From NCBI GenBank assembly GCA_963669155.1, contig OZ022576.1, positions 4,531,822 through 4,595,821 of the forward strand: a stretch of 64,000 bases of DNA, read 5' to 3'. The notes under the pieces were generated by a model that was not told where the DNA came from, did not search any database, and saw nothing but the letters and a program-made list of their open reading frames with translations. Every line of letters starts with the position of its first letter. Within the stretch, counting starts at the first letter, position 1. Position numbers and translations under genes: made by a program. The stretch comes from Arbacia lixula (taxonomy: Eukaryota; Echinodermata; Echinoidea; Arbacioida; Arbaciidae). Below are positions 23,259-55,287 of the stretch, piece after piece.

Positions 23259-23332
23259 ACCCATTCCTACAGACATCAATGCCTTCTTTGAGTGCTGCCC
23301 TCTAGAGGTTGCATTAGCCCAGTGTATAGAAG
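23259..23332 (+). CDS. Gene 1 upstream EGF exon (candidate)
   Basis: The acceptor is a good T-rich tract ending TTTCAG, and the donor is AAG|GTATGC. Only one of three frames is open. It enters in phase 2 and leaves in phase 1, which fits the next exon at 23820. The end reads CCPLEVALAQCIE and joins to ACPC. The Cys spacing C-x8-C-x3-C-x-C is identical to that of a clear EGF end in exon 25153 (CQEGFYGPTCKLPCPC), although the usual glycines are missing. That spacing match is the main reason to keep it. Chance cannot be excluded for a 74-nt exon. Confidence 0.5.
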
Positions 23333-26300
23333 GTATGCGCATGAATTTTCACGATGTTCCATCACGTCGTATCACGCGCTCACATTGAAAGCAATTTTGA
23401 TCTATAATTGTGAATTTGAAGACAATGCTGCCTGTAAACCCTTGACTAATTATGTGACTCAATTTTTATATTAATTCCGTTACAAACTTAAACCTATAGG
23501 CTTAACAGAAAGTTAAACTATATACTGAATGTAGAAACCGGCAATGAAATGAAATGTAATATATTTCTAGCACGGGGAAAGAGTTGTTCAACTTTGCAAT
23601 ATCAACAATGTCTTTCATGTTCATGAAGTCACGTACGCTTGTCAATATGAAGGAGAATATGCTTGTTAAACAGCCCTACGGCTATAAGTCTATAATTGTA
23701 AACACCGGTGACCTACCTATTGTTATTGTTTCTTCCCCAATAATTGGCTGTAATTGATCAGTCATGACTGACCCAGTTTTGTCCACCTATCTTTACCTTT
23801 TTTCTTGATGACGTCATAGCATGTCCCTGTCAGTTCGGCGGGTACTGCGACTTCACGGCCCGCGCGTGCCGCTGCCCAGCGGGCCGCACGGGTCCTATTT
23901 GCGAGGAGACGTGCCCGGTAGGAGCGTATGGGGTGGAGTGCGTGCAGAGGTGTACTTGTGGAGGAGGGGCGAGGTGCGATACGTACAGCGGGCTGTGCAA
24001 CTGTCTTCCTAACCAGAGGTATGGGGATATAGACTCAAGTGGAAAGGAAGTGATGGGGAGCAAAGAGGGGAAGGTGATGATGAAGTGCGATGAGTCGGAA
24101 ACGTGGAGGAGATGAAATTCAGCAAGTCCTGGGAAGGTGGAAGAGGGGATGGAGAGAAGTAAGGATAGGGGTAAGATGCTGTAAGGAGGAGGAGGAGGAG
24201 GAGGAGGAGGAGGAGGAGGAGGAGGAGAAGGAGGAGGAGCAGGAGGAGGAGGAGAAGGTTGAGGGGGAGGAGGAGAAAGGAGAGGAGGAGGAGGAGGAGG
24301 AGGAGGAGGAGGAGGAGGAGGAGGAGAAGGAGGAGGAGCAGGAGGAGGAGGAGAAGGTTGAGGGGGAGGAGGAGAAAGGAGAGGAGGAGGAGGAGGAGGA
24401 GGAGGAGGAGGAGGAGGAGGAGGAGGAGGAGGAGGAGGAGGAGGAGAAGGAGCAGGAGGAGGAGGAGAAGAAGGAGGGGAGGAGGAGAAAGGAGAGGGGG
24501 AGGAGGAGAAAGGAGAGGAGGAGGAGGAGGAGGAGGACAATGAGGAGGAGGAGGAGGAGGAGGAGGAGGAGGAGGAGGAGAAGGAGGAGGTGGTGGTGGA
24601 GAAAGTTGAGAAGGACGTTACTCAGCCAGTTATTCTTCTGTGTAATATCATCTATTTCTGTAGACGTGGGTTCATGATTGTTTTTACAACGGTCTTGGAA
24701 AATGCCACGTAGGCTTATCATAAACAATTACTCATGGCATGCTGAAGATTATGATTATATGTATACAAACGAAAACAGCATCGTAATTAACATATCAATG
24801 GCAGCCTTAAGGGTGATGTATTAATCACGTTAATGGGTTGCATATTTATTACTCTTTATGTTTTGTTGATGTTTGATGTAACTCGGACCCCCGGGAAGAA
24901 CAACGTCTAGCACACTGACTGGCTACCCTAGATAAAGAAAAATAAATGAAATAATAGATAAATAAGTGAAATATCATGTTGTAATTCTCTTGCAAAGAAA
25001 TGCCTTCGCCTTTCTGATAGGCTACTCTCCTACGTCACATGAATTTTGAGTGTTTAGCAGATATTACACAAACCGTCCAATCATTTCAATCATCCTTATA
25101 ATTATTATACCATGCCCCTCTTTTTTATCGTGGCAATGACGTCACCCCGTAGCTGCACACTATGCCAGGAAGGCTTCTATGGACCAACGTGTAAGCTGCC
25201 TTGCCCATGTGACCCCACCGTGTCATGTGATTCCTTCACTGGCCAATGCGATCAAAGTACGTGAACGCCGTCTTTCTTACAATCACTTCTTGTCCTCTTA
25301 TTTCTATATTAAAAGATACTTATTTCCAATCTGATCATATATGACATAAAAATCAACATTATTGGCACAAGGATAGATTGTCGAAATAAAAAAAACTCAA
25401 GATACGTACAGTAAGCCTATTTCGTAAAGTTTATAATCTTTTCTTTTCGTATATCCATGTTTCAAATATAATTCTAACAATGAAATATACTCTAAGAACA
25501 GTCACTTTTTATGTTAATTACCTGAAAAAAAGGGATAACAAATTGAGTCTTGTTTGTTTTTGTTTCGAATCTGTTTCAAGATCAATAAGTGATACGGTAG
25601 GTCTTATTTTTAAGGTTTGGTACGTAGGACACATTTTTATGAATTTGTATCGATCTGACAGTAGAACATTACACATCAAATCAAATAGCTGCTTCATAAT
25701 AACGAGATATCACTTTATAACAATGTTCAGGACAAAAAAAAGACATATTGATGTTCATATGATTTATTTCGCTTTTGACTTTCGTTCATTCTGGCAGCTA
25801 TCCAAGTCCACGATAATAATTTCTGGACGCATTTCTCGATCAGTGAGATGGCCGCCATAGCGCTCGGAGCTGCGCTGATCGTCGTCATGGTGATAGGGGG
25901 CGCTCTTCTGATTCGGTCTTGTTGTCGAAGACGCTCATCTCAAATGCTCACTTTGTAAGTTCTTATCGACTTGTCCAAAATCGCAAAATATAACTTTGTC
26001 CCTCTTTGCAACACCAATCATAATTCTTTCCATAGCCTTTTTAGTTACTCAAAGTTTTCTCTCCAGCCTCTTAGTTGTGATCCATGTTTCTGCTCCATAA
26101 GAGAGCACAGGTATGATGCACGGGTTAAAAGTCTGTTTCTTGAGAGAAAGGGGGAGCTTCTGATCACGAAAGATAAAGTTGAGCTTGCAAATGTGGCCCA
26201 AGCCACCTGGACCTTTCTATTCACTTCCCCTGCTGTTTCATTTTCTATGGAGATCTTTTTGTTTATGTAATTGTCAACCTTTCTATGGTCTTCCCTTGAA

Positions 26301-29300
26301 CTGTGATGGTGTGTTCTTTAAATCTGCTGCTAATCATTACCATTGTCTTTGTGATATTCATTTTTAGTCCAGTTTTTCTGCTTTCTTCATTTAGTTTTCG
26401 GATAATTTTCTCCAGTCAAAGATTAAATACATTTATATTGTATAAGCATACTATGCCTACATTTTTAAAATCTCACAAGCGTGACTACTATGATCTACTT
26501 CATTATCAATCAACACGAAAAAAAAACACACCAGAGAGTGACGTGTATACTCTCGTGACTAAAATCCCTACTTGCCCTTTGATAGGAGCACATCACGATA
26601 TTGAATTCCGACCGTCTTCAAGACTTCTTGCGAGTCTCGCACCCCCATTAGGATGATGGTTATCACGCGATGCTCCGTTACCAAGGACGCACGCGCTGCT
26701 AGGGGAGTCACTAGGAAGCTCACCCGATTAGACTCCGAGAAAACACACGTGGGATATGAGTCATCCACCACAAGTTCACATCTGAGCCGCGTTAAAGGGA
26801 GGCGAGAGTTGCCACTATTGTGGGAAATCGACACCTATAATTCGCTGGTCCAAGGTATTAGGGCAGGCACAATAAGCTAGCTTGGACGAGCGAATGTTAA
26901 AGCCCGTCCAGCCAACTCGCATCTCGATTCAGACCAGCTGTCGTTATGTAGGCCTGCTGTCTTTATGTAGGCCTGCGATATTTTCAACTTAAATACCTTT
27001 GTTTGAAACTCGATAAAAGGTGACAAGAGTCGCCAGTAATGTGAGAAATCACCATCATTTAATTTGCTGGTCTACATGCTGTTGATTAAGGCAGGCACTA
27101 AGGGCTATCTTGGACGAGCGAATGATGACAGCCCGTTTTCCGTCCAGCCGACTAACAGCCGGATTCAGGCCGACTGCTGCTCTGTAGGGCACCGATGCTT
27201 CAATGTTAACCTTAAAGGGTTATTTCACCCTAAAGATTAGTTGTTTTCAATAAAAGCAGAAACATGAAAGAAACACATTAGTGAAAGTTTGACGAAAATC
27301 CGCCAACGGATAAGAAAGTTAGGATCTTTCGAAATTTCAACTTTGTGACGTCACGTACGAGGCGCTCTCCCATATGTTGTGTACCCAATAATTCCATGAA
27401 TTGCTTTTTTTTCTGTTTTTGACAACTTAATGATTCTTTCCCCTTCAGGTACGTGTGTATAAACGTATTTCTAATGAAGTATCAAATGCTCATGTAAAAG
27501 GATGCATATCTTTTGAGAAAATGTACACAACATAATTTTGGAGAGCACCTCGCACGTGACGTCGCAAAATCAAAATTTTAAAATCAAATTACTTTCTTTT
27601 CCTTTGACCGATTTTCGTAAAATCTTCACTAATATGTTTCATTCATGTGTCTCCTTTAATTAAAATCAAAATAATATAAGGGTGAACTATCCCTTTAACA
27701 AATTGCGCAAGGTTTCAAATGGGTCGCAACTTAAAGATACTTTTTACTTTTTACTTTTACTTGTACTCAAAATGCGATCTAATGTTCCATAATTATCCAT
27801 ACCTAAAACATTGTTTCTATGACATGTATGAGCTGGTCTATTATTTGATCAGTGAACATGTTCTCTCCCCGGAACATTTCAGTTTCAGATGATGGTGAAT
27901 GTCGATTGCACGTAGACCTGGTAAGAAAACAGTAGTCTTAGTGGAGACTATAATGATGATGATGATGAGGATGAAGATGACGATCATAATGAACATAAAA
28001 TTGTCATATAAGGAGGCATTGGAGAGGACAAAAGGCTAAGATCTGACTGTCACGCTCTTATCATCAATACCATGTTTAATACATAATAGTTATAATTTGT
28101 ATAGAAGCTATGACACATGCACCATGTAGATTGTAACTCTAAGAGCAGGATAAGAGACCGTCTTCCCGGCCATTGCTGTTATGTACCCAGTCCTATTCAC
28201 ATGCTTCAAGATACAAGAAGACCACGATAAACATTAATGTACAGTCAGCATAGCGGCGACATCGCAGTTTCCAGTTTCCTTCGCTATCTTCTTTCTTCTT
28301 TATCGTACCAGACCATGACCTCATGATGACGTAATGATAGATCACGACTGTGTCCATGATGACACGAGTATGATACTTCATGTAAGGCAATTAAAGAACT
28401 GGTATATTCCATCATTACCCAAACGGTAGTGACTTTACAGCACTTTACACGTTATTATTTTTTTCCTCTCTCGGAAATTAAGTGGGTGATAGATTCAGCA
28501 GCCCCAACCTATACTTTCACATGATTTATGAATTGAGCTTTGAGCTCCACGGAACAGAAGTATGTATATTCAAGTGACAGAAAAAACGTCAGAAGGAAAT
28601 GTGATGTAGTCAACGTTGATGGCGTGCTTCATACTCCATGTCATTCAAACATGATACCCGGTATGTCCTAACCTGGAACATAATATCCTCTTTCTACATA
28701 ATCTCCCCAGAACCCGCCTTCCGTCCGATGAGCCGTGCCGATACACAGTGGATTCCGGTAAGATAAATCTCCCAGCTTTAGTCCCTTCTGCCATTGTCTG
28801 TGCCACACACAGTGCTGATCTATCTGCCTATAGGTTCTGTGAATGTTACTAGTGTCAACATCATCGGCACATAGGGAGTTGATTTCCGGAGAGAAAGTGC
28901 TGCCATCACATTATCTCGGATGTCAATTTTACGCGTCTATAACGTATTTCACTACAGTATGTAGATATTGTCGCGTCATCATTTCGTACGACTATTTCAA
29001 ACTGAGTTGATAGTAATGATGGTCATGCTGAATGCTGTTTAGCATAGGTACTAGGCTGTAAGGTGCATGGACACAACCCAGTCTGTCAACAACGATGTCT
29101 GATAACACATACTATTCCCCAATCCCATCCTCGCTCCTCCTGGAAGAAACCAGAGGAGCTATGACATCGTCATGGTGTAGTCTGTGTTACCAGACATAGT
29201 TGTTGACAGACTGGGTTGTGTCCATGCACCTCACAACCTAGGCTAAATTTGGGTTAATGGTGATAATCAATATCAGAAAGCAATCCCCTTCCTTTTTGTA

Positions 29301-31265
29301 GTTTTCTATGACTGTTTGCTGAAACAATGTATCCGATTCTATTATCCGAATTATCTTTTCTCTCCTCACATCCCTTGTGTGTTATTTTTTCCTATTTATA
29401 AAGTTTTTCTTGGTAATATCCGATGAATCATGACAGTGCCCTCGGTTTCCACGCAATACACAGCTGACACAATACATACTTCAAGCATACAGGTGCCTGG
29501 TCCCTCGTAAAGGTGCATGGTGTGTTGATAAATGGTGACGAGTCGTTTCCGCAGATAAAAAATAGATTAGTACCAAAATAAAAATCATTTGTCATTATAG
29601 TAAATTAGTCATATTAAATCAACACAGACTATATTTTATACGACTGTACATATCTAACACACAGGTTCTCATTATAGTTTCAGTTTTATCTACTTTTTTT
29701 TTATCTATTTATTTAATAAAGATGCATATTGTGTTGATATATGGTGACGAGTCGTTTCCGCAGACACTTGTCTAAAAAAAGATGAACGACAAAATTAAGG
29801 TCATCTGTCATGGTCATATTAAATCAACACAGGATATTAATCGACCACACCAATACTATAGGACGTAATATGTACAATGATATTTGTATATCATACATAT
29901 ACTAAGAGATGGGTACTAATTAACAATACATTTACGTAAAGATTTATTCATTTATCTATTTATTCCGTCTTTTTTTTACCAATCAACTAATATTACATAG
30001 ACCACCAGAACAATTTGATAATCAATCAGAGAACTACATTAAAGACAATTCAATTAACATTCGAGTAATGGCTTATGAAGGTGACTAGGCACCAGCTCTC
30101 GCCTATTTTTTTTATGTACAGTCCATAAAAGGTAACGAAAGGATTAACAGATACAATCACGTACTCTGTATCATTGACTGTGTACTCTTTGCGACATAAG
30201 TCCGTAAAAAGATTAATTGTTATTGTCCTGATATTTGATGTAACTTACCTAACATGATTGCATCCAATATTGTATAAAAAAAAGTATGATTAACTTAGAG
30301 ATTTTCTACATGTACATGAATGAAAGCCTGGTCAATATGTTTGACTGTATTTATTTTCGTCATCATGCCCCCCCCCCCCCCTTCCGACCTCAGACCCGAC
30401 CGCCACGGTGACGACCACCAAGCGTCATTCGGCCGTGCTGCTGACATCAGATGGAGATGCCAGCATCTACTGGAACCAGCGAGCCAGTCACTTCGAGCGG
30501 CAGCTGCCAACCATCCCTGGGGAGGGCCGGCTACTGCGACCAGTCAGCGCCCAGCCCCTGATGAGACGTCCCTACGAGCGACGCTCCCTTCGCACCGACC
30601 GCCCGCCTCGGTGTGTTTCCGTGGCGTGCGGGGAGAAACTAGAGCTGCATCGTGAAGCCACGGGCGCGACGGCCAAGCTGCCGATCCGCCCTCCCAATGT
30701 CGGCCGCCTGAGCGGCAGCGAGGGAAACCTGTGTCTGCCCATGCGGCAGGAGAGTTTTGGGTGTAGCGCGAGTGCGAGCATCCCGGACTACAGGCAGGGC
30801 CGCCATGTCGCGAGGAGGAACGGCAACTACGACCACCTCTCCAGACCCGTCAGCTGGGTCTCGCACTGCTCACGTGACTCGTCACCTGAGCCGTCACCTG
30901 ATGGTTACCACAGGCTGGAGACGCCGCCTACACTCCGAGTCAAGCGAGGAGACTCGGCCAACGAGGGGTCCACACCGGGTGGCCCGGGCCCTAGACCGGG
31001 CTCCTCCTCGAACGATCTCGACTTCCACTCCCTCCACGATTTCGACCACGCGCCCAAGCTGCCCAAGAGATCGCACCTTGAGAAGACGGAGAGTGCACCC
31101 CTGTCCGAGAATAACTACGAGGAGCCAAGACTCGTCAGAGATTCCAAGAGTGAAAGCCGAGCAAATGAAGAGAGAAGGAGAACACTAGAAAGAGAATCGA
31201 GTTTTAGAAGGAAAGATTCCGAAACATCTGTTGAAAACATGTATGAAGTCCTAACCGCGCCATGA
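23259..31265 (+). CDS. Gene 1: EGF-repeat single-pass receptor, 3' part (MEGF/Draper/SREC-like)
   Basis: Six exons join in one frame: 23259-23332, 23820-24018, 25153-25256, 25798-25954, 28711-28757 and 30394-31265. They encode about 483 residues: cysteine-rich laminin-type EGF repeats, one membrane helix, a basic stop-transfer (RSCCRRR) and a tail of about 310 residues with Tyr motifs YDHL, YHRL, YEEP and YEVL. EGF-ladder receptors of the MEGF10/PEAR1/Draper/CED-1 and SREC groups bind ligands or apoptotic corpses outside and recruit SH2 or PTB adaptors through tail tyrosines; that role here is inferred. The start codon, signal peptide and any further EGF repeats are not recognised, so the 5' end is missing or unread. 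Every junction is phase-consistent and each splice site is GT/AG. The assignment to one named family is uncertain because the tail has no motif that I recognise as unique. Confidence 0.72.
23820..24018 (+). CDS. Gene 1 EGF-like exon
   Basis: The translation holds about one and a half laminin-type EGF modules: CPCQFGGYCDFTARACRC, then PAGRTGPICEETC, then CVQRCTCGGGARCD, then GLCNC. Cys spacing and the G-x-x-G-x-x-C signature are typical of EGF ladders in MEGF and scavenger receptor F proteins. The acceptor is CATAG|C and the donor CAGAG|GTATGG. The entry phase is 1, usual for EGF exons, and the exit phase is 2. GC content is far higher than in the flanking introns, as in the other coding exons of this window. 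A long GAG-triplet array starts about 165 bases past the donor. Confidence 0.85.
24184..24590. repeat. GAG triplet array
   Basis: About 400 bases of GAG units with GAA, GCA and GTT interruptions. The order AAGGAGGAGCAGGAGG, then AAGGTTGAGGGGGAGG, repeats with a period near 105. It lies in a gene 1 intron, so the Glu-rich frame on the plus strand is not coding. Confidence 0.95.
24882..24975 (+). mobile_element. Non-LTR retrotransposon 3' tail candidate
   Basis: The stretch GGACCCCCGGGAAGAACAAC, then GACTGGCTACCCTAGATAAA, then repeated AATAAATGAAATA has the form of LINE 3' ends that finish in short A-rich repeats. A T-rich lead-in precedes it. It lies in a gene 1 intron. Only the tail is recognisable. 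Confidence 0.45.
25153..25256 (+). CDS. Gene 1 last EGF-like exon before the membrane
   Basis: The exon reads CTLCQEGFYGPTCKLPCPC and then six more residues to SCD, with SFTGQCDQ at the end, a standard laminin-type EGF module. The acceptor is CCGTAG|C and the donor CAAA|GTACGTG. It enters in phase 2, completing a Ser codon with 24018, and leaves in phase 1. The exit phase fits the membrane exon at 25798. It also fits the orphan exon at 27883 and the membrane exon of gene 2 at 38542, so alternative joining is possible in principle. Confidence 0.85.
25798..25954 (+). CDS. Gene 1 transmembrane exon
   Basis: A juxtamembrane stretch ending HFSISEM is followed by a hydrophobic run of about 23 residues (AAIALGAALIVVMVIGGALL) and then the basic RSCCRRR stop-transfer. 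This orients the protein with the EGF repeats outside. The acceptor is TCTGGCAG|C and the donor CTTT|GTAAGT. Entry is in phase 1 and exit in phase 2, the same class as the membrane exons of genes 2 and 3. The paired Cys beside the membrane could be palmitoylated, which is inference. Confidence 0.85.
25965..26430 (-). pseudogene. Non-LTR retrotransposon reverse transcriptase remnant, type 2
   Basis: Read on the minus strand from 26430, one frame gives LNEESRKTGLKMNITKTMVM, then QGKTIERLTIT. A second frame gives KKISIENETAGEVNRKVQVA. A later one gives RLERKL, a stop, then TKKAMERIMIGVAKRDKV. These blocks in this order are the palm-to-thumb region of RTE-like or related non-LTR enzymes. Several frameshifts and stops show it is dead. 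It lies antisense in a gene 1 intron, directly after the membrane exon. Confidence 0.7.
26809..27200. repeat. Tandem duplication, period about 228 bp
   Basis: CTTGGACGAGCGAATG occurs at 26881 and again at 27109. The flanks (GTGRGAAATC, GCTGGTC, GGCAGGCAC before; CCGTCCAGCC and GATTCAGRCC after) match in the same order. It lies in a gene 1 intron directly before MITE copy B. Confidence 0.65.
27212..27698. mobile_element. TTAA-flanked foldback MITE, copy B
   Basis: The ends are TTAAAGGG and CCCTTTAA with 20-bp-class inverted repeats (AGGGTGAACTATCCCT on the right). The interior matches copy A at 4276 over most of its length and is itself a long imperfect hairpin. It lies in the intron of gene 1 between 25954 and 28711. 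The right arm CRE-like site has decayed to TGACGTCG. Confidence 0.85.
27883..27920 (+). CDS. Orphan mini-exon inside gene 1 (candidate alternative exon)
   Basis: There is a strong acceptor (ACATTTCAG|T) and a strong donor (CTG|GTAAGA) 38 nt apart. Only one frame is open, reading SDDGECRLHVDL, with entry phase 1 and exit phase 0. It cannot sit between 25954 (phase 2) and 28711, so it is not part of the main gene 1 chain. Entry phase 1 does fit the EGF exon ending at 25256, and exit phase 0 fits the orphan terminal exon at 34682. It may be an alternative exon or a chance pair of splice sites. Confidence 0.3.
28711..28757 (+). CDS. Gene 1 juxtamembrane mini-exon
   Basis: This 47-nt exon has acceptor CTCCCCAG|A and donor CCG|GTAAGA. 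Two of three frames are open, but only one joins phase 2 upstream (25954) to phase 1 downstream (30394); it reads TRLPSDEPCRYTVDS. Phase class 2 to 1 matches the corresponding small exons of genes 2 and 3. A retroposon remnant, a MITE and 228-bp tandem repeats lie in the 2.8-kb intron before it. Confidence 0.65.
29051..29241. mobile_element. Foldback element with 59-bp arms
   Basis: The left arm at 29051-29109 and the right arm at 29183-29241 are near-perfect reverse complements starting CTAGG and separated by about 73 bases. The shared core is GGTGCATGGACACAACCCAG. It is in the last intron of gene 1. It looks like a small MITE; no direct target repeat was identified with certainty. Confidence 0.75.
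29510..29925. repeat. Tandem duplication, period about 209 bp
   Basis: GGTGACGAGTCGTTTCCGCA is present at about 29534 and about 29743, each followed by a diverged copy of GTCATATTAAATCAACACAG. It lies in the last gene 1 intron, just after the foldback element. Confidence 0.75.
30394..31265 (+). CDS. Gene 1 terminal exon: cytoplasmic tail
   Basis: The 872-nt exon follows a poly-C tract and the acceptor ACCTCAG|AC, and enters in phase 1. It encodes 289 residues rich in Arg, Ser and Pro, ending in TGA at 31263-31265. Tyrosine motifs include YWNQ near the start, NYDHL (Tyr codon 30828), YHRL (about 30906), NYEEP (31115) and MYEVL (31242) close to the C terminus. YxxL pairs of this kind recruit SH2 proteins in ITAM-type receptors; use here is inferred. 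Overlapping open frames on both strands come from the high GC and third-position bias and are not separate genes. Confidence 0.85.
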
Positions 31266-35748: not shown

Positions 35749-35752
35749 ATGG
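35749..35752 (+). CDS. Gene 2 candidate start exon (ATGG then donor)
   Basis: ATG with A at -3 and G at +4 is followed at once by G|GTAAGTAC, a near-ideal donor. The exit phase is 1, which completes a Val codon with the membrane exon at 38542. About 300 bases upstream are relatively GC-rich and may be promoter and 5' UTR. The alternative is that this is a chance match and that the real ectodomain exons lie elsewhere. Confidence 0.35.
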
Positions 35753-37355: not shown

Positions 37356-40300
37356 AAGAGAGGGGGTGGGTAAGAGGCGATAAGCGAATCCACACAGTGG
37401 GTGTATAAGGACAACGTTTGTACAAGTCATGTAAAACAGAATAAACACTGTCTATATCAATAATAATGGCTAGCACAAGTTTTCGAAACTTTACCAGGTC
37501 TTTGAAGTATACACCCACGCGCTTCACTCCTCATTTTCAGTTTCATCTGTATTGTATGATGTATGGGTTTCTCCCGCAATGGTCCAGTTCAGTATGAGGA
37601 TGTGTGTTTCCCCGTTCAAATGCATTTCTCGTACACAAATTTAGCATGCACTTACTAAAGAAATAATCATAAGGGGATTTATGTCTCTCCTCCATTTCCG
37701 ACACGGTCATTTACTTACGATTGCTTTTTAAGAGTTTATTTGTTCCACACTTATAAGGGGAAAGTGTCGGGAGGTTAGAGGGTGTAAAAATGAAATGAAA
37801 ATATTTCCTAGCGTCTTCGGTGATCATGAGCCTGTAAACATAGAGAACATAGCAAAACTAACATGAATAATGAAATGACAAAAACAGAACGTATGGTTAT
37901 GAAAATATGCATCTGTATACTACCAACGTACCTGGGTGCAATCCACCTGTTTATTTCACATTTTATTTTATTTATTAGTTTATTTTATTTTGTTATATCT
38001 GTATTCTCATGTCATGTATGTGTATGTGTGTATACTGAATGTTCTCTTATACATACTAGTATGTGGAGGTATACCAATGCGTCTTATATTGAATATGTTA
38101 CACTGAGTTAGTTAACGTCAAAACTCTTTTAAGTTGTAGTATTAGCCCATATGTTATGTATTGCCATCCCCCCCCCCATATCCCTCCTCACCTCCCCCTC
38201 CGCCCCACCCCCCCCCGACTCTCTATCTCCCTCCCTCCCCTCCTCTGTCTGTCTCTATACATAGTCTCATTTTATCTTGCCCCAACCCCTCCTTTTCTCC
38301 CCCCTCTCTCTCTCCTTCCTTTTCTCTCTGTATATATACATAATCTCATTTTCTCTTGCCCCCCCCCCTCTTCCCTCCCCCTCCCCTCTCCCTCTCCCTT
38401 CTTTTCCTCCTCGACTCTGTCCCATCCTTTTATAATCATCTGTCTTTCTCATCCTTTTATAATCATTTGTCTTTCTCTATGTCTTTCCACCCTTCTCACT
38501 CTGTTTTTCCCCTCTTCCATCTATGCACTGCATACGCCCAGTTGCTGCCGAAGACTTGGAAAAGCTGACTATGATAGGCGTGGCTTTGGGCGGCACCGCC
38601 CTCTTACTGTGTCTCGTCTTGATCTTGGTTATCAGCAAAATGTACCGGCAGCTCTCCACACTGATGTGCATGCAGAACAGGTATAACCCTTCCCTTCTCA
38701 TTCTTCTCCTTATTCTCCTCCTCCACTTCCTGTCCCCTTAATCTTTTCTCCTTCTTGTTTGTTTTCTCCGTCTTATTTCTAGTTTATCTTTTCCTATTAC
38801 TATTACCATCATTACCAAAAGCAAAACACTATCTTCCTTCAACATTTCTTCATCTTCTTCTTCTTCTTCTTCTTCTTCTCCTTCACCTTCTTCTTCTTCT
38901 TCTTCTACTTCTTCTTCTTCTTCTTTTTTTCCTTCTTCTTCTTCTTCTTCTTCTTCTTCTTCTTCTTCTTCTTCTTCTTCTTCTTCTTCTTCTTCTTCTT
39001 CAGTCTTTTCCTTCTTAAATTCTCAATTTGCTGGGATCTTTCCTCTGTCTCTTCTTCTGAGCTTGTATCATTCGTTGTTTCTACTTTTATTTCTCTTCCG
39101 ACACCTACACGACCTACTCCTCTTTTCATTTTGCTTCGTTTTCCTACATTCCTCATGTGTCTTCTCTTCGACCACCTCGTCTTATTTTCTGTCTTTCTCT
39201 TGTTACTCTCCTTCTACATTTATAATATGTGTTCAATTTTGTTTCACATGTTCTTCTTCTTTTTGTCCCTTTCAACCGTTCTGTTCAATCTCTCCTTCCC
39301 TTTCACTGTGGATGCAGTAATGACTCCGAGAAGCCTCATCGCAGTATAACAGACAAAGAGAAACGTAAAGAAACTAAACATGAAGGTAGGAGCCTGCTCA
39401 TGTATATGATTTATGTTCAAGTGTTATTAATCAATGTTCAAGTATATATTCTAATGATTAATTATCCCACTTCTGTATTCATTGTGGTTTAACCGGCTGT
39501 TAAATTGGATTGAATCAGTTTAGGCCAATGGAGACTCCACGTCGGACTGTAAAAACGAAATCAATCATAAAGAAGACAATACAAGCTATACTATCATTTG
39601 TTATGGATTTCCAGGCTTATAATTATCCTCATCTTTGTAATAAGTAAATCATATTACATGTTTATACTATATCCTACATTCAAACTTTTTCAAATAAAAT
39701 CATGTTTAGTTGTAGAGCGAAAATCAATATGACTCAATATGACTTTCCGAATATTACTTTTGATGATACGCGACACTTTCCTTGACCCTCTATTCAGTTT
39801 CATTAAGATCTTAAGTAGCGGTATATATATGATGATATTGCAATTTATTGTCCAATTGGAAATTTCATTTTCACTGGTTTACATTGATACAAATAAAGAA
39901 TGTGACATCACACAAGGTACATATCAACAGAAGGACATATACAATTATACAAATTCTATATATATAAATATAGGAGGCTAGTTATATGGATTGTATATTT
40001 TGAGAGGGTAATTCTTAATCCCTCATTATATTGTCGTTTCCATTTTACACATGTTTGCAGGTGAGAGCACCAAAGCATCGACTCCTAATGACCCAACAGG
40101 ACGCCCTCCTGCGATGTGCATGCTCCCACTTACAAGCTATCAACATGATCATGGTGACCAAAGGGCATCGCAACCCGCGTCAGAATCCGACTCACTGGAG
40201 AGCGTTTCCAGTGAGTCTGATAACAAGGAGGAACCACTTCGCTCTCCAACAGTAGCCGAATTGAAGAACAGCTTAGCCCTGCCTCTGAAAAAGGTTTATA

Positions 40301-41286
40301 ACAGGAGTCAGACCCTAGACTATCGCGGAAAGTATCCAGTCTGTGCCAAGTCGGGGACGCTGAAAGACGGGCGACCGCGCGCTATGACCGGAAGTGCTCT
40401 GGTGTCTCCAGACAGGCCAGGAATGCAGGCATCCATGCTGGCCAACCAGTCTGAATCGGATTCCGTCCTGAGCACACCGGGATCGACCGGGTCGCTTTGT
40501 AAGAACCCCCAAGCGTATGTCGTCACAGAAATCGTAGACGCGAAGGATACCAAGAAGCGCCCGAGTGTCCGCCTCCGAGAGAGCCGTCCGAGGAAGCAGT
40601 TATCGATGTCTATTAAGAAGCAGCTGGAGCAGCCGGACCCGTTTTACTTCTCTCTTGAGTCTACTGGGCAGTCCTCAGGTGGCGAGTCTATGGAGCAGAC
40701 GACCACTCCAAGCCCCACGAAGAAGAAGGGTGTTTGCAAGATCGGGAAGCAGGTGTTTCCTACGGCTGGCCACGAGGAACAGAGTCCGCCCACACCAAGT
40801 GACATCTATGAGAACAACACTGTAAAAGGTTACAGTAGTATCAGTCAGGCAAAAGAAACGAAGTCCCACGAACCAGAGGTACAACACAAGATTGCGATGA
40901 AGCCGCCTTTAACCAAAGCTCGTCCGCCTTTGGTTAAGTCGTCGAGTGCCGCCGGTCTGCATCGCGGCGGCACGTGGTCGCCAAGAACTCTTGAAAGACA
41001 CCGCATGCTGCTGGGAGAAGCAGCGGAGAACAGCAACGGCCTCGGAGATAGGGCGCGCGCAGGGTCCCTCCGTGAGCACTTCCCTCGATCCATGTCGCCG
41101 TACGAGCTGGTGCAGATACCCTCCGTGACGTCAGTCCAGTCGGTCACGTGTGCGGAGGAGGTGGGCTGCTACTCGAGGATGATTCGACAACCAGATGGGA
41201 GAAGACGCGCCTCGTCCATCGGAGCTGCGGACATCTCGGGAGCACGAAGCGACAGGGCCTACAACAAACTTGCCGTCGGAATGTGA
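35749..41286 (+). CDS. Gene 2: single-pass protein with long Tyr/Ser-rich tail
   Basis: The model joins 35749-35752 (ATGG), 38542-38680, 39318-39385 and 40061-41286 into 478 residues. The N terminus before the membrane helix is only about nine residues, so the helix would act as a signal-anchor. The tail is about 430 residues with Tyr motifs YNRS, YVVT, YFSL, YENN (a Grb2-type YxNx), YELV, YSRM and YNKL. I do not recognise the family. It shares the exon plan of genes 1 and 3 and two tail motifs with gene 3. The last three exons are secure; the ATGG exon is inferred from context and phase. Another ATG at 38523 is in frame just before the membrane exon and could serve if transcription started there. 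Confidence 0.6.
37289..37360. repeat. GA array
   Basis: Over 30 GA units in the first intron of the gene 2 model. Confidence 0.95.
38542..38680 (+). CDS. Gene 2 transmembrane exon
   Basis: The exon begins after the acceptor CGCCCAG at the end of a 380-base CT-rich block and ends at AACAG|GTATAA. It reads AAEDLEKLTM, then a hydrophobic helix (IGVALGGTALLLCLVLILVI), then SKMYRQLSTLMCMQN. Entry phase is 1 and exit phase 2, as in genes 1 and 3. Charge distribution, acidic before and basic after, puts the tail in the cytoplasm. Confidence 0.82.
38848..39002. repeat. CTT triplet array
   Basis: CTT units with a few interruptions in the gene 2 intron after the membrane exon. Confidence 0.95.
39318..39385 (+). 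CDS. Gene 2 juxtamembrane exon
   Basis: The acceptor is GGATGCAG|T and the donor GAAG|GTAGGA. The only frame that fits both neighbours reads SNDSEKPHRSITDKEK followed by RKETKHE, a highly basic and polar stretch. Phase class is 2 to 1. A CTT-triplet array of about 150 bases fills much of the intron before it. Confidence 0.75.
39830..39910 (-). mobile_element. Retroposon 3' tail candidate, minus copy
   Basis: This is the reverse complement of the tail at 22980-23062 over about 70 bases, with a few differences. It lies in the gene 2 intron before the terminal exon. Confidence 0.55.
40061..41286 (+). CDS. Gene 2 terminal exon: cytoplasmic tail
   Basis: This 1226-nt exon follows acceptor TTTGCAG|GT, enters in phase 1 and encodes 407 residues ending in TGA at 41284-41286. 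It is rich in Ser, Pro, Arg and Lys and looks disordered. Notable pieces are SDSLESVSSESD, KVYNRSQTLDY, PDPFYFSLES, SDIYENNTVKGY, MSPYELVQI and the end RAYNKLAVGM. The Tyr sites resemble SH2-ligand or YxxPhi sorting motifs; function is inferred. Overlapping frames on both strands are shadows of this exon. Confidence 0.88.
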
Positions 41287-43989: not shown

Positions 43990-44825
43990 TCAAATTTTAA
44001 GAACATCAAGAGCAATTTTGTTGTAGGCATGTCGATCGTCACGTGGTTTGAAAGAATGTCTAGACCGGTCAAGTTTATCATAGCTCTCCTCTAAGGCATT
44101 GGCTGCAGTGTTGTGTCCTGACCCTTCCCAGTCGACCTTCAGGTTGTGCTCTCCCCTCTGCGCGACGTGGTCCTTTCGTGCAGGTCGGTCATCTATGTGG
44201 TTATACCGCTCCTCGCTCCGAGCTAGTTCCGTCTCCGGTATTGGACGGTTTGCAATGACGTCAGGGATATTCCGATCCGGCACTGCCGCTTTCGCCTGGA
44301 ACTTGTCTGGCTGATCGTCTAGCTTGAAGTAGTACGGGTCAACGTCGCGCGGGGGCCTGACGGGACTGTTCCGCCCACCACCGCCGCTGAGGGCGGGCTG
44401 CGGGTGGCTTCCTGCAGGAGGGTTGGGCCGCGTCCCGGTGATGTGTCCTCCGTGGTGGTGCGGTAGATGATACTCATGGTTGACGGCGTGGGTTATACAT
44501 GGTCGCGGGTGGTTCGGCTGAGCAGGTGGCTTGGTGTCTCCCTCAGGACGGGATTTGATCAGGCCCATGTATCCTGCGGAATTGCCACTGTCCGGAGAAG
44601 TAGGGACTATAAGCTTCCCATCGTTACCACTGCTGCCCGGATACGGCGCGGACTGCGCGTATGGAATGGCGTGCGGTACTCGGTTGGATTGCGGCGTTAC
44701 CCTGGTGACGTTGTGTGAAGGCCCGTCGTAGTGATGGTGTTGGGCGCTGGTGGCATTTCCCTGAGAAGGGCCACTGGCTGACATACAGCACGGATGGGTC
44801 GCATTGTCACACGTACACACGGCAC
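43990..44825 (-). CDS. Gene 3 exon 6: cytoplasmic tail
   Basis: The acceptor CCTTCAG|GT enters in phase 1. The exon encodes 277 residues ending in TGA at 43992-43990. It begins AVCTCDNATHPCCMSA, is rich in His, Pro, Gly and Asn, and holds Tyr motifs SAGYMGLI, DPYYFKLDD, RYNHID, ESYDKLD and HAYNKIALDV. DPYYFKL and AYNKIA match DPFYFSL and AYNKLA in the tail of gene 2. A TTTATT on the plus strand at 43239-43244 is an AATAAA on this strand about 750 bases past the stop. Confidence 0.85.
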
Positions 44826-48200: not shown

Positions 48201-51200
48201 AGAGCTTAGACAGCACCTATGTAAAGTAAATAAAAAGTACTGGGTAATAGTGGTAAAGATTACGGAATCCGTAATCATGACAGAATTGCTCTGCCGTAAT
48301 CACGGGTCTCGGTATGGTATAAGTGCTACAGTGTCTGTATCATGGCTTTATTTTGTGGCTTGTAAGACTTACCTGGTGGGCACTTTGCTCCAGGAGTGGC
48401 ATATCCGGTAATGGCGTTGGCGAACTTCATCCTGTTGGAAATGACACGAGAAATGGTATTCATGGGCAATGTTGCTTCCAAAGTGATGAGGAATGACGCG
48501 TGATATTAACAATCAATTCTATATTCATATTCAGGAGAACATAATATATATATAATACACTTTTAATGTGTATCGTGACAGATGTATGGATTCTGACCGG
48601 TGTTGTCCATCAACAAAAACAGACATTCAAAGGAATTTAAGGAATGAGATGCATGTCGATCAACGCATGTCAATCGCATCATATACATATGAGACATATG
48701 TGCTTGCAAATGGAATACCAATCATTTTCACAACAAGACAAGAGCGTTTAACCATTGAAATATTGCGATGAGTTTTTAATGTAAGTACTGATGAATTTAA
48801 CCTTGTTAGTTAAGAGCTAAAAGTCTATATAATTATTGAGTTTGTTGTAACGAAGGATGTTGTAAGTAAACACTATGGCAACAACTACAATATTTAGAGC
48901 TCATTAGCTTTTTCCGAAGTAGACGTTTTGAGTTACAGTGATACTTCTTACAGTATGGCCATGATAATGTCCTAAGTGTGAATACTCCAAATGTATCTGA
49001 TGTGAGGATTGGAACAGAACCAAATCATATCCTACGTCAACCAAATTCCTGCGTAGCTTCGGCTTACCCGTTCACCGTCATTTCACGGTCGCGTCTTCTC
49101 TTCCACACGCAGTAGAAGACGAGACTGAGCACGGTAACCATGAGGGCAACGAGGATGGCCACGCCGATGAACACCGCTGCCTTGTAGACACCGCCCACCC
49201 CATGGTCCGCCCCTGGAAGATGCAAGGGAAGATTGTAGAATCGTTGTCATGGCTGTTGTCATTATTACAAACACAATCATCGCTACCACCATCATCATCA
49301 TCATAATCGTCACCACGTTCACCACTACCACCAACAAAAACAACATCGGTGTCATCATCGAAGATACATCACTTCTCCCACCATAATCAGTCCCATAAGA
49401 TGCACCTTTGCCATATCTTACACCATTATCTTTACACAATTTTCATGACCTTTCACGTTCCCCAATTTTGTCACCATCATATCATAGCTTGTTTATGTTT
49501 TTCTCCTCCTCCCACCCCCCCCCCCACCCCCGTCCCCGCCCTTTGACATTCTTCTTCTTCGATAAAATTACCTCTATCCCCTTTATCACCAGCACCACCC
49601 TTTTAATCGATTCCACTTCCACTTTCAAAACGCCCCCCCCCCCCCCCCATCCCTCCATCTGACACCCAACTGACACCCATGTCCTCACCTGCCTTGCCGC
49701 CATCCACGCAGTTGGTCCTGCCAGCCGGGCAGGGCCAAGGCGTCCCCTTCCCTAGATCCTCGTACTCCGGCTCCTCCACCTCCGGCTCCTCCCGCTCCAG
49801 CTCCGACTCCGGGAGTCGGTGGTTGGGCCAGTCTCGTCTGTCTGGAGCTTCAGGGCGCTCTGGTCTCTCTGGTTTCTCCGGCCTTTCCGGCTTCTCTGGG
49901 GGCTCCGGCCTCTCTGGGCGGTTCCTCCAGGTAGGGAGCATGGGTTGGGTAGGGTGTTCCCGCCTGTTCCCCGGGAGCTCATGCTGGCTCTGCTTCTGAA
50001 GGGGGACTGGAGGGTGTGGGAAGGGGGGGGGGGGGGGGGTTGGGCGTCGGGGAAAGGACATCGAATATTTATCTGCATTCTTTTCAAAATGCTCATGTCA
50101 TGATTATGAGGCATTGTAATTTCACATAACATTGATTAATGTTGAGGATGGGATGATTCTGATGATGGTGGTGGCAGCGACCGTGAGAATGATGACAACG
50201 ATCATGATTGTGGTTCTTGTATTGACGGTGATAAGGACGATGATGATAATAAGTGACAGTTGTGAAGATGATTTTGCTCTTGTAAATAAAGGAAATGATA
50301 GTAGAGGTGATTGCAAGTCATGGAGCGGTGATTTAAAAAGCACTTTCTTTCTCAAAAGCAATCTGCTCATTTTATTTTAAAAAGTCAAACATCTCATTCT
50401 TTTAATTTAATTATGTTAGATTCTCATGATGAGGTGTTTGCGAATGCTTTGCATTTACAGCCAGTAGTCTTACAGCATGTTTCCTATTGTGATATGGAAG
50501 CACATTTAAAACAAGCTTGGTCGTCTGAATGACATGGCTGTTTCGATTGTGCCACAGTGGTTTCAACATGATTTCATATCGTGACCCAATTCGACATAGT
50601 TCATCATGGTTCATGTTTGTGGGAATCACAGGACACACGCATACTCACAATTTCCGGACGACTTCATGCACGAATATGACTTTCCTCAATAGTTCCTTGT
50701 CATGGAAATTGATCATTTACTACGCCCCAAAGCGCCAGCATCTTAGAGCTTTAGGAACAGTTGGTCATAGGCAATACCTACGGTATCTTAGGAGAGTTAT
50801 GTATAACAAACGGATGAGACAGTACCAAGCCCAGCTCCACCTTCAACAATATCTCAAGCCCATGACAAAGAGGCTGGTAAATGTGTGATATTGCTTAAAT
50901 CCTATATCAAATCTTGGGAGTAATCTTCTATAGGGGACCAACAACTTCATTTCCCGTCTTCTGCTACGTGCCAGTGTCCAAACGCATGCCAAGTCAAATA
51001 AAGATACACCTGCTAGAAAGTAATCTTCAATTGTCATTCGGAGCAGGTGATGTTAATAACTTAAGACGTTGTTAACCTTACGTATGTAACAACCATGGCA
51101 GATACGACTGGCCTTTGACTTTATCAAGTCAAAGTCTTGTTAGTCATAGGCAATAGTCAAATTAGTGTCTTATAAGATCAGTATAACTAACAAGAAGTAT

Positions 51201-51400: not shown

Positions 51401-51445
<45 letters not shown>

Positions 51446-51490
51446 GAGTAGTAGGAGTAGTAGGAGTAGTAGGAGTAGTAGGAGTAGTAG

Positions 51491-51553
<63 letters not shown>

Positions 51554-54500
51554 AAGAAGAAGAAGAAGAAGAAGAAGAAGAAGAAGAAGAAGAAGAAGAA
51601 GAAGAAGAAGAAGAAGAAGAAGAAGAAGAAGAAGAAGAAGAAGAAAAAGAAGAAGAAGAAGAAGAAGAAGAAGAAGAAAAAGAAGAAGAAGAAGAAGAAA
51701 AAGAAGAAGAAGAAGAAGAAGAAGAAGAAGAAGAAGAAGAAGAAGAAGAAGAAGAAGAAGAAGAAGAAGAAGAAGAAGAAGAAGAAACTGGGTTGTTTAA
51801 TCATATCAATAAACTTACAGGTAGTTATTTGTGGGCAACGCTGACTTCCAGTAATTCCCTGCGCACGCTCCCATCTACGAAAAACAAATGGAAGAAGAAA
51901 ATAAAAACGTTAACAGTTTGACGAAATGATCATTTAGATATATTAGTGGAAGAACAGATAGTGATATGATCATAAAAGACGATTATGATCACATTGAAGG
52001 GATATTCCTTTAATGAGAATACGCAAAATAATTCCGACTTTCGTACAGCCATGGCGCAACAAATTATTGGAATGTGAGTCAACGCACGTATTTGTGCTTG
52101 TGTTTATAATGTTTGTGATTGTGTGAGGGAGATATTGATTGATGCAGTTGATGTGGTTGTTGATGCGACTGTCACTATTATTATTATGACCGACAAGGGA
52201 GCATGGGAATCATACACAAGTTTAACGAACAAATTTAATACACGGAGCAGTTTTCCCTCTGAAAATGTACGACAGATTACATTTCTGTGCATTATCCTCC
52301 CTCTGTAATCACATAGGTCATATGCTGTATACAGTTACAGGATAACAGATTAAGATAAAGATTATAATGATTCTCCAATTCCAATGCAGCATGATATTGA
52401 TACTACCCCATATGAAATGGAAACTGATCATTATCAATCTCTCTGTAGTCTTCACCATTATATCATGGAATAACATTTTCTAATAATAGGTCAAATTGGC
52501 CTTGATTTGGTCCCTTTCGCGATAACATTTTAGATTTCCAATGTATCGATTTTCACTAAGCATTTTTATTAAAAAAATAAAAAGAAATTTTATATGAGTA
52601 TGCAGTACATTAGAATATGTAAAATGCAGTCCTAAGAATTCATAACAGAATTGCAGAAATATGGTTGTTGTGGAGATGGATGGGCCTATACAGATGTAAG
52701 CTTGCAAACAAAACAGGCATCGTATTGGGTGATGAGGATTAAAGTGAAGACGCTAGCCAAGGAAAAGAGTAATTATTTGTGTTCCCTCAGTTTTTATTTT
52801 GTTTTAACAATTCAAATACAGGGTTCACCCTTTCAGTCATGGCAACTGGTTATCAAAGACACCTTGTAAGTAAAACAGGTATTCAATAAAACTGATTCGC
52901 TCATGCTCTTAGCTATGAACGGGTATTGTGCACCGGAACAGACGGGTTTGTGCTTATAATCCAGGTCAGTTGTTTCTAGGGCATTCTGGATAAGGGTAGG
53001 GTCCCCCTTGCGAACTCTCTGCACACGTGCCCTGGGGGGAAATGACGTCATGCAATATGAATGGCTATTCATCGGTGATATAACATCGGTTAAGCACCAT
53101 GGGTATGAATTTAAGGAGATCCAATTTTAGGAACGGGAAGGGAAAGTATTTTTATTTAAACATGACCGTGATGAATTTAAGAAGCCGTTCTCTTTTTTAC
53201 TCATTCCCCATGCTGGCGCGATATAACATTACAGCCATAACAATCACGAACACTCTGATTGAGATTCCACGGCAGGTGTTTCATAGTACTACGGTCTCCG
53301 TGTATCAAAATTGAATTAAATCAATTAATGATATGGTGAGTACTTTCCGCCAAAAACTTCAAGGATATGTAATGCATACATTTGATCAGCGTGACTGAAA
53401 TATAATCATCGTATAAATAACGGACATAATTATCACAAAATGAAATACCATTAACAGGCATTCAGCAGTTTGACTACTATAATTCCTGGCACTGATATCC
53501 AATTGCATGGCACTTAATATTTAATTTAGTCTAATTCACTTTAATGTAACCATAGTAACATAGTGATGTTCCCACATAGTGTCTTAAACAATGAAACAGT
53601 CGATTGTCAAGTGTTGGTGTAGTGCAGCTTCGCACTACTGTCTGGTGAGAAGAAAGCCTCTGTCCAATATTGAATCTTCAAACTTTTAGAGAGTTTATGT
53701 GGACATCAGCCAAGCGTACTATAATGAATGACAAACGTAGCTGCTTTGTTTTTCATAAGACTGCAGTAAAGGGGCCGCGGATACTGACGAAATCACTTTG
53801 TTGCCTTCTTCATGAAGGATATATTTTCAACACCCCCCCCCCCCTCTCTCTCTCTCTCTCTATTCCTCCTCTCTTCTTGTCACCATAAATATCTATGTAT
53901 GTATGTCCGTCGCCCTCCTCTCTCTCTTCCTCTGTCCCTGTACCCCCCTCTCTCTCACCTATATAGAAATGCTACACAGAATTAGCCTTGTTAAAGAAAA
54001 TAGGTTTTCAAACCTGTGCCTTAGTTTTTATATATAGCTTGTTAGTTTTGAGTCACTTGATTCTATTTCGGATATGTCTAAACACATCGGAACTTGGCCA
54101 GTGCTCATTGAGAGAGCAGTCCAATGTGACGCATGAACTGCCTTGACACAGGGGACCAACGACGGGGGTCCAACATCTACGCTCAATCTTTGCCTACAAA
54201 TACCACGCAACGTTGTTCTATCCATAATTTGTATTGTTTATAAAGCATTATGGATTGGATTAACAAAACACCATTCACACAGGTGGTACACTCGATATAT
54301 CCACTGTTGATATAGCGTTTATGACCACTATCACACAAATATTATGTATAACTTAAAATAAATCAAGCTTCAATATTCACTTTATTAAAAGTGCTTGAGA
54401 TTATGTCACCCTTACTACAATACCTCAATAATTGTACTACTACATGTCATGAAAAAAGCTTTGGGAACTCATTCATGATATATATATGATTTTTTTTGTA

Positions 54501-55287
54501 TGAAGTATACCCAGGAGACCTAAAATGCTCATCCTGAAAATATCCAACTCGTATATAGTACCGTTGGCTACCATACGTTAGTCGTGTACATGTAAGTAGG
54601 TAGATGTACTGTATGGGTGATGTGAGACGAAGATTTATGGTTTGGACACAATATTGCATTTGTGACAAGCTTGTGGCAAAACTTGTGACTTTAAACAACA
54701 ATGAAGTGACGATGGCTGAATCAGAGGTGATGTCACGGAACCCCAGCCCCTTATCTCTTCCGGGCAATTTTTCAAATAGCAAGTTAATCTTTTACGTGCC
54801 AGAAGTGCTCACAAATTCAACGAAACATCATTTGATCCTGCACAGAAGGGGTAAACTATGTGGCATTAGTTCATGTTGATTTATTTTATTTTGATAAATT
54901 ATGTAAGTCTTTTTACAAAACGGTAGGTAGATAATTGAGACTGAAGCATATATTCCTTTATCAAAATACTCACACATGCAATGGAAGACTTAACCAAATT
55001 CGTGCCGGACAAAAATGCTCCTCTGTAGAAATTATGTTTAGTGGCAATGTAAACGTATGACTATGGCAAAGGTTTCATCAGAAACATCGTCGCAAAGGCC
55101 TCATCGCGCTCCGGAAAAGAATATATTATCATTTAACCATGACATTATTGATTAAGGTATTGTTTAAAAAAAAACAGGGAGGAGTGTTTGACGTTGGTAC
55201 TTACGCGCATTGAGTCGGATTGCTGATGACGCTTGCAATGTGTAAGCTGGCCAACAGCAAACTAGGAAGTCCTATTATCGGCTTCAT
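43990..55287 (-). CDS. Gene 3: type I membrane protein with RPE-repeat stalk and Tyr-rich tail
   Basis: Six exons on the minus strand join without a phase break: 55287-55205, 51874-51819, 50006-49689, 49212-49068, 48431-48373 and 44825-43990, giving 498 residues from ATG to stop. Order: signal peptide (about residues 1-22), short Cys-containing segment, Arg/Lys-Pro-Glu stalk of about 40 residues, acidic segment with a Cys pair, membrane helix, KRRRDR stop-transfer, Cys-rich mini-exon region and a 277-residue tail with Tyr motifs YMGL, YYFKL, YNHI, YDKL and YNKI. I do not recognise a named family. The exon plan and tail motifs link it to gene 2. It converges with gene 2 and diverges from gene 4. 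Confidence 0.75.
45209..45430. repeat. GT array
   Basis: Interrupted GT and AT units over about 220 bases in intron 5 of gene 3. Confidence 0.95.
47979..48090. promoter_or_regulatory. Cluster of NRF1-, E-box- and CRE-like sites in a gene 3 intron
   Basis: GCGCATGC (47981-47988) is the NRF1-type palindrome. CACGTGAG and TGACGTCGAT follow within about 110 bases, in a GC-raised patch of intron 5 of gene 3. This may be an internal promoter or enhancer; no exon is visible beside it. Confidence 0.25.
48373..48431 (-). CDS. Gene 3 exon 5: juxtamembrane mini-exon
   Basis: The acceptor is TCCAACAG|G and the donor ACCAG|GTAAGT. The reading is MKFANAITGYATPGAKCPP, phases 2 in and 1 out. It resembles exon 2 of the same gene (ITG, then CP) although it lies on the other side of the membrane helix. 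Together with the start of exon 6 (AVCTCDN, then CC) it forms a Cys-rich cytoplasmic patch. Confidence 0.75.
49068..49212 (-). CDS. Gene 3 exon 4: transmembrane segment
   Basis: The acceptor is CTTCCAG|GG and the donor ACGG|GTAAGC. The frame reads ADHGVGGVYKAA, then a strong helix (VFIGVAILVALMVTVLSLVF), then YCVWKRRRDREMTVN. The basic cluster after the helix puts the C-terminal side inside. Phases are 1 in and 2 out, matching the membrane exons of genes 1 and 2. Confidence 0.85.
49689..50006 (-). CDS. Gene 3 exon 3: proline-rich stalk
   Basis: After a poly-C tract and acceptor CCTCCAG|TC the exon reads PLQKQSQHELPG, then a block of tandem RPE/KPE units (RPERPEPPEKPERPEKPE and on), then an acidic stretch (EREEPEVEEPEYEDLG) and WPCPAGRTNCVDGGKA. 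The donor is GCAG|GTGAGG. Phases are 1 in and 1 out. The stalk is likely an extended polyproline-type rod outside the cell. A second AG at 49997-49996 would give a slightly shorter exon but does not fit the phase of exon 2. Confidence 0.75.
51159..51402. repeat. Direct duplication of about 89 bp
   Basis: A block from ATTAGTGTCTTATAAGATCA to a GTA-triplet end occurs at 51159-51247 and 51314-51402 with almost no differences. It lies beside the large triplet array in intron 2 of gene 3. Confidence 0.75.
51352..51786. repeat. GTA then GAA triplet array
   Basis: About 200 bases of GTA units, including a block of GGAGTA hexamers (51445-51495), pass into about 235 bases of GAA units with a few AAA interruptions. 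In gene 3 sense the strand is TTC/TAC. It ends about 33 bases from the donor of exon 2. Confidence 0.95.
51819..51874 (-). CDS. Gene 3 exon 2: short ITG...CP exon
   Basis: The exon has acceptor TTCGTAG|A and donor ACCT|GTAAGT. It reads WERAQGITGSQRCPQITT, with entry phase 2 and exit phase 1. Both junctions fit exon 1 and exon 3. It resembles exon 5 in sequence and phase. A GAA/GTA triplet array of over 430 bases starts about 33 bases after the donor, in the following intron. Confidence 0.7.
51875..55204. other. Gene 3 intron 1
   Basis: AT-rich, with a poly-C plus CT tract at about 53831-53862. Nothing coding was recognised. Confidence 0.55.
55205..55287 (-). CDS. Gene 3 exon 1: signal peptide
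   Basis: The ATG at 55287-55285 opens MKPIIGLPSLLLASLHIAS, a classic signal peptide with a basic residue and a hydrophobic core. It is the first in-frame ATG in the open stretch, with A at -3. Cleavage would fall near VIS/NPTQ. The donor is GCGC|GTAAGT and the exit phase is 2, which makes an Ala codon with exon 2. The upstream 250 bases on this strand are GC-richer than average and may hold the promoter and 5' UTR. Confidence 0.78.

Follow-up and report, generated by a model that had tools for sequence, protein, structure and literature searches.

Five neighbouring predicted receptor genes of Arbacia lixula share an intron-phase plan and may derive from one locally duplicated gene

A 64,000-nucleotide stretch of Arbacia lixula DNA (contig OZ022576.1, positions 4531822-4595821, hereafter the window; the genome comprises 607 Mb in 590 contigs) and its downstream flank hold five predicted single-pass receptor genes whose final exons follow one plan: a membrane exon entered in phase 1 and left in phase 2, a short juxtamembrane exon running from phase 2 to phase 1, and lastly one tail exon, which is entered in phase 1. 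The five genes are probably of common descent, and the account that we favour on balance is that they arose long ago, as a tandem cluster, by local duplication of a whole gene for a single-pass receptor. All exon models were predicted from sequence alone, from AG/GT borders and open frames, and the gene content and introns mark the DNA as that of an animal. Coordinates are window-relative, those above 64000 lying in the downstream flank, where local numbering for loci L006, L007, L008 and L009 equals the window-relative position minus 64000, 74000, 84000 and 94000, respectively. The exons that define the plan, with lengths in nucleotides (nt), are listed below.

25798..25954, plus strand: gene 1 membrane exon, phase 1 to 2, 157 nt (borders and frame; acceptor tied with another 46 nt into the exon)
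28711..28757, plus strand: gene 1 short juxtamembrane exon, phase 2 to 1, 47 nt (borders and frame; site ranking)
30394..31265, plus strand: gene 1 terminal tail exon, entered in phase 1, 872 nt (borders and frame; site ranking; three YxxL/I)
38542..38680, plus strand: gene 2 membrane exon, phase 1 to 2, 139 nt (borders and frame; site ranking; phase-blind scan)
39318..39385, plus strand: gene 2 short exon, phase 2 to 1, 68 nt (borders and frame; site ranking)
40061..41286, plus strand: gene 2 terminal tail exon, entered in phase 1, 1226 nt (borders and frame; site ranking)
49068..49212, minus strand: gene 3 membrane exon, phase 1 to 2, 145 nt (borders and frame; site ranking; phase-blind scan)
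48373..48431, minus strand: gene 3 short exon, phase 2 to 1, 59 nt (borders and frame; site ranking)
43990..44825, minus strand: gene 3 terminal tail exon, entered in phase 1, 836 nt (borders and frame; site ranking)
65548-65683 (L006 1548-1683), plus strand: gene 4 membrane exon, phase 1 to 2
66206-66258 (L006 2206-2258), plus strand: gene 4 short exon, phase 2 to 1
66914-67794 (L006 2914-3794), plus strand: gene 4 tail exon
93731-93872, plus strand: gene 5 membrane exon, phase 1 to 2
95019-95104, plus strand: gene 5 short exon, phase 2 to 1, poor acceptor
95710-97304, plus strand: gene 5 tail exon

The first-pass annotation had described this plan for genes 1 to 3, and every coordinate, size and phase that it gave was reproduced with AG/GT borders and open frames. 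Inspection of 100 kb on each side for long open segments yielded two extra tail exons downstream, belonging to genes 4 and 5, which directly follow genes 1-3, were not known to the first-pass annotation and carry the same plan, bringing the count to five of five. When splice sites (those scoring 2 or more) were ranked by a simple score that disregarded phase, the membrane-exon donor and the tail acceptor in use were the best within the open frame in all five genes, and the membrane-exon acceptor was the best in four, that of gene 1 tying with a phase-2 site 46 nt into the exon. Both strands of 264 kb were then scanned, blind to phase, for segments resembling membrane exons, the cut-offs being chosen so that the known genes just passed. 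This left six loci, namely the five genes and one segment beside a mucin-like exon; the phases recovered were 1 to 2 in four of the genes and, via the tied acceptor, 2 to 2 in gene 1. Two other screens were discarded: a stricter scan with a tail requirement caught genes 1, 3 and 5 together with one mucin-like artefact and missed genes 2 and 4, and a hexamer coding score trained on the tails failed to locate the membrane exons.

Since a membrane exon left in phase 2 and a tail entered in phase 1 force the phases of the exon between them, each gene contributes three independent phases, and the short exon is not independent evidence. The short exons are also less secure: genes 1 to 4 have 1, 2, 1 and 1 equally good open segments of phase 2 to 1 (the chosen one included) and 3, 0, 1 and 1 of other phases; a 38-nt candidate for the short exon of gene 1 was dropped because it contains a stop. 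Against the usual intron phase ratio 0:1:2 of 5:3:2 (PMC7259759), the chance that genes 4 and 5 would both match the triple fixed from genes 1-3 is 3e-4; it rises to 2e-3 if 70% of membrane exons, an assumed figure, are entered in phase 1.

The regularity continues upstream of the membrane exon in some of the genes, where the following exons were modelled.

23259..23332, plus strand: gene 1 exon, earliest found, phase 2 to 1 (AG/GT borders, open frame)
23820..24018, plus strand: gene 1 EGF-like exon, phase 1 to 2 (borders and frame; EGF matches in PDB)
25153..25256, plus strand: gene 1 EGF-like exon, phase 2 to 1 (borders and frame)
35749..35752, plus strand: gene 2 first exon, ATGG, phase 0 to 1, uncertain (borders and frame)
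55205..55287, minus strand: gene 3 first exon, phase 0 to 2, signal-peptide-like by eye (borders and frame)
51819..51874, minus strand: gene 3 exon, phase 2 to 1 (borders and frame)
49689..50006, minus strand: gene 3 RPE-repeat stalk exon, phase 1 to 1 (borders and frame)
61009..61148, plus strand: gene 4 first exon, phase 0 to 2, signal-peptide-like (picked by eye)
61642..61742, plus strand: gene 4 Cys-rich exon, phase 2 to 1
62550..62736, plus strand: gene 4 Cys-rich exon, phase 1 to 2
63217..63290, plus strand: gene 4 Cys-rich exon, phase 2 to 1
64017-64248 (L006 17-248), plus strand: gene 4 exon, phase 1 to 2, weak donor
64799-64830 (L006 799-830), plus strand: gene 4 exon, phase 2 to 1, selected to bridge phase
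79440-79579, plus strand: gene 5 likely first exon, phase 0 to 2 (sought only as 0 to 2)
89786-89913, plus strand: gene 5 exon, phase 2 to 1
90563-90806, plus strand: gene 5 exon, phase 1 to 2
91839-92008 (L008:7839-8008), plus strand: gene 5 exon, phase 2 to 1, selected to bridge phase

The ectodomain exons of genes 1, 4 and 5 alternate between 2 to 1 and 1 to 2 as far as the membrane exon. In the models of genes 3, 4 and 5, a 0 to 2 first exon is followed by one of phase 2 to 1. Altogether the 28 modelled introns comprise 15 in phase 1, 13 in phase 2 and none in phase 0. The model of gene 4 has nine exons on the plus strand and crosses the downstream edge of the window. For gene 1 a start exon was sought and no candidate was accepted, and a further in-frame ATG is located upstream of the likely first exon of gene 5. 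In gene 2 the same ATG can alternatively be read through 88 nt (35749-35836, plus strand) to another donor, again with phase 0 to 1, so that the N-terminus before the membrane exon would differ; the earlier description of its ectodomain as almost nothing stands, uncertain though the first exon is.

The sequences themselves show nothing comparable. The EGF part of gene 1 matched PDB chains (6u11, 8e-9; Tie2, 3.6e-7; SCARF1, 4.8e-6), its only Pfam match being EGF_laminin at E 0.64, below the cut-off, with no kinase or other Pfam domain in its tail at E up to 1. Neither gene 2 nor gene 3 matched Pfam, and the ectodomain pieces and tails of genes 4 and 5 gave no Pfam match above the cut-off (Methyltransf_22, at E 0.019, was the sole sub-threshold match of the gene 5 ectodomain piece). 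For the ectodomain pieces of genes 4 and 5 PDB yielded no useful match, a single one of gene 4 at E 2.1 not being meaningful. A common ectodomain among genes 1, 3, 4 and 5, including an early idea of domain likeness between genes 4 and 5, was rejected after comparison with shuffled sequences, and an alignment of three N-terminal sequences was uninformative. Likewise, common tail sequence had to be abandoned as proof of duplication, as in gapped comparisons among tails 1-3 shuffled sequences scored at least as well in 285, 499 and 682 of 1000 trials. Among ungapped tail 9-mers, the score of tails 1 and 3 was reached by 2 of 500 shuffles, the match being a Pro/Gly/Ser string, and that of tails 2 and 3 by 12 of 500, while the other eight pairs gave 39 to 325 of 500. 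The match between tails 2 and 3 is DP[FY]YF.L; the coding sites of DP[FY]YF (40636-40650, plus strand, and 44326-44340, minus strand) are the window's only matches to the degenerate pattern, with 0.03 expected, and the same two tails have the C-terminal end AYNK[LI]A in common. Membrane peptides stood above their shuffles (1/1000 for each of the pairs 1/2 and 1/3, 99/1000 for 2/3) and were not counted, since shuffling breaks up the hydrophobic block.

What the tails do share is a type of motif. Y-x-x-[LI] occurs 3, 3, 5, 6 and 10 times in tails 1-5, or 27 times against a shuffle mean of about 5.7 in sum; these counts were matched by 35, 125, 0, 0 and 0 of 2000 shuffles and are thus significant in all but tail 2. 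Y-x-x-L-[DE] is present in all five (1, 1, 2, 3 and 4 times). The strict immunoreceptor tyrosine-based inhibitory motif (ITIM), [ILVS]xYxx[LIV], is found once each in genes 2, 4 and 5 and in neither gene 1 nor gene 3, and no strict activation motif (ITAM; YxxL/I x6-8 YxxL/I) was found in the five tails, three looser pairs occurring in gene 5 only.

Under the account that we favour, a receptor gene would have been duplicated locally in its entirety, with gene 3 inverted once, to give the five-gene cluster. The ancestor would have had a ladder consisting of a 0 to 2 first exon, alternating 2 to 1 and 1 to 2 ectodomain exons, a 1 to 2 membrane exon, a 2 to 1 short exon and one terminal tail exon, and its intron phases would have been retained while the ectodomain and the disordered tail diverged beyond recognition. 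Gene 2 would have lost its ectodomain, or never had one; it resembles a transmembrane adaptor. In favour of this account stand the plan in all five genes with its best or tied-best borders, the outcome of the phase-blind scan, the lack of phase 0 among the modelled introns, the like first and second exons of genes 3, 4 and 5, the excess of Y-x-x-[LI], the occurrence of Y-x-x-L-[DE] in every tail, the DP[FY]YF.L match of tails 2 and 3, and the early stops on skipping of the short exon in genes 2, 3 and 4.

Several observations weigh against this account. There is no detectable overall similarity among the tails, either in the gapped comparison of the three pairs from tails 1-3 or in the ungapped 9-mers of all ten pairs, and genome searches with tails 3 and 4, at E up to 10, gave no match besides the tail itself. 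The ectodomain pieces likewise lack overall similarity, the scores of their ten pairs being reached by 39 to 482 of 500 shuffles. The ladder is not uniform, as the stalk exon of gene 3 runs from phase 1 to phase 1 and gene 2 has no ectodomain ladder. Part of it was also chosen by phase: the exons at L006:799-830 and L008:7839-8008 were picked to bridge phase, the first exon of gene 5 was sought only as 0 to 2, and signal-like exons of that type often arise by chance (72 of the 261 rows for the region's plus strand). All five genes agree in the phases of their membrane, short and tail exons, as members of one family would, but the short exon of gene 5 is weak, with a poor acceptor and 24 equally good segments, 6 of them 2 to 1.

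The main alternative, which we regard as unlikely though deserving of serious consideration, is that five unrelated receptors are neighbours by chance and that the plan is simply usual for single-pass receptors. If so, the locus would be a case of ordinary gene clustering. In metazoans extracellular modules normally have phase 1 at their borders, and taken together the membrane and short exons amount to one 1-1 module; exon shuffling of the 1-1 type is described as the metazoan rule (PMC7259759), and similar layouts exist elsewhere, in exons 8, 9 and 10 of the growth hormone receptor gene and in the 53-nt exon of CEACAM1. The absence of sequence similarity in tails and ectodomains fits this alternative as well. 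However, the 1-1 rule does not predict the phase 2 intron that lies inside the membrane/short pair in five of five genes, nor does chance assembly sit well with the lack of a single phase 0 intron among the 28 modelled.

The first-pass annotation had proposed instead that a module of membrane and tail was duplicated locally and attached to different outer parts. Its premise of a shared phase plan proved real and local, and holds in two more neighbours, but the shared tail module found no support, given tails that lack overall similarity, two of them matching nothing else in the genome. The same three terminal exons beside unlike ectodomains would suit such a module, and in CEACAMs the membrane and cytoplasmic exons are exchanged jointly (PMC2110893). 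Nevertheless, the 2/1 alternation that runs through the ectodomains of genes 1, 4 and 5, and the matching first and second exons of genes 3, 4 and 5, point to whole genes. With tails that differ from each other as much as the ectodomains do, and a ladder that extends beyond the tail end, we prefer whole-gene duplication to a mobile tail module and consider the latter improbable. It is less probable still that some models, chiefly of short and first exons, are wrong and the shared plan partly an artefact of frame fitting: short-exon phases are forced by their neighbours, gene 5 has a poor short-exon acceptor and a first exon sought by phase, and the first exon of gene 2 is ambiguous, but the membrane-in, membrane-out and tail-in phases come from best or tied-best sites ranked without regard to phase.

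If the five genes are one family, as whole-gene duplication would have it, their intron phases expose a common origin beyond the reach of sequence comparison in a fast-changing receptor locus. Motif content suggests how the products may signal: ligand binding outside the cell would lead to tyrosine phosphorylation of the tail at Y-x-x-L/I, where SH2 proteins would then dock. Each of the five genes has an asymmetric short exon, so that its skipping puts the tail out of frame and could switch the tail off. Computed skipped forms of genes 2, 3 and 4 run into a stop after 1, 6 and 0 residues; against such a switch, the stop does not come early in genes 1 and 5, where 87 and 102 residues precede it. 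Short-exon skipping may be used as a tail switch. The most far-reaching version of the proposal, which we offer as doubtful, is that one exon chassis, preserved only as an intron-phase ladder, gave at least five receptors at one locus whose ectodomains and tails have no recognisable sequence in common. One of these would be little more than a signalling tail anchored in the membrane, and all would possess an asymmetric juxtamembrane exon whose skipping can switch the tail off.

Other features were noted in the flanks. Three long open exons on the minus strand, at -48257 to -44262, -40469 to -36474 and -32717 to -28386 (L012, L002 and L003), have about 1330-1440 codons, two of them being almost the same. 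They carry numerous short repeats of the LPLPD...DWENxDW type and a sushi-like end, and read as a mucin-like gene that was recently duplicated in tandem. By eye, an open segment at -3898 to -3356 (plus strand, L005) resembles part of a non-long-terminal-repeat (non-LTR) retrotransposon reverse transcriptase, a long open exon at 141258-142628 (plus strand, L019) resembles a carbohydrate sulfotransferase, and open segments at 150166-154872 (L020, L021) resemble a gene of the death-fold plus NB-ARC type.

Several known systems invite comparison. Transmembrane adaptors such as LAT have a minimal ectodomain, a single span and a long tail with tyrosines, and gene 2 resembles them in having hardly any ectodomain, one membrane span and a long tyrosine-containing tail; it differs in having no sequence match to them (sought in Pfam only) and a single Y.N site. 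Gene 1 is like EGF receptors of the SCARF1/Tie2/MEGF type in that its EGF-like modules match Tie2 and SCARF1 chains, but its tail has no kinase or other Pfam domain and few EGF modules were found.

The growth hormone receptor gene has a large exon 10, and its phases end 2 to 0 rather than 2 to 1. Its order of membrane exon, short exon and tail exon is comparable to that of the genes described here, the membrane domain being encoded by exon 8 and the intracellular part by exons 9 and 10 (PMC5983672). Loss of exon 9 yields a short, frameshifted receptor capable of dampening the full-length form (PMC5983672). In contrast to class I cytokine receptors, no cytokine-receptor homology domain was detected here, Pfam giving no match above the cut-off in genes 1-3, the ectodomain pieces of genes 4 and 5 or tails 4 and 5.

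CEACAMs, a tandem family (PMC2110893), offer a second parallel. A short frame-shifting exon precedes the tail in CEACAM1 as it does here: when the 53-nt exon 7 is included, the frame shifts so that a long tail bearing two ITIMs is made, and when it is left out the tail is short (PMC2490704). CEACAMs differ in their immunoglobulin ectodomains, small tail exons and true ITIMs, whereas the present genes combine EGF-like or unnamed Cys-rich ectodomains with one big tail exon, a strict ITIM in only three genes and no strict ITAM. The listings and passages returned by a literature search contained no description of this locus or its phase plan. Still, the first-pass statement that no family with this layout is known has to be withdrawn in view of the comparable short exons before the tail in the growth hormone receptor and CEACAM1: the layout of membrane exon, short exon and large tail exon is already known, and tandem single-pass receptors with tyrosine-motif tails are a known kind. 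The asymmetric short exon predicts two kinds of splice form, one that includes the signalling tail and one that lacks it, of the sort known from CEACAM1 and the growth hormone receptor.

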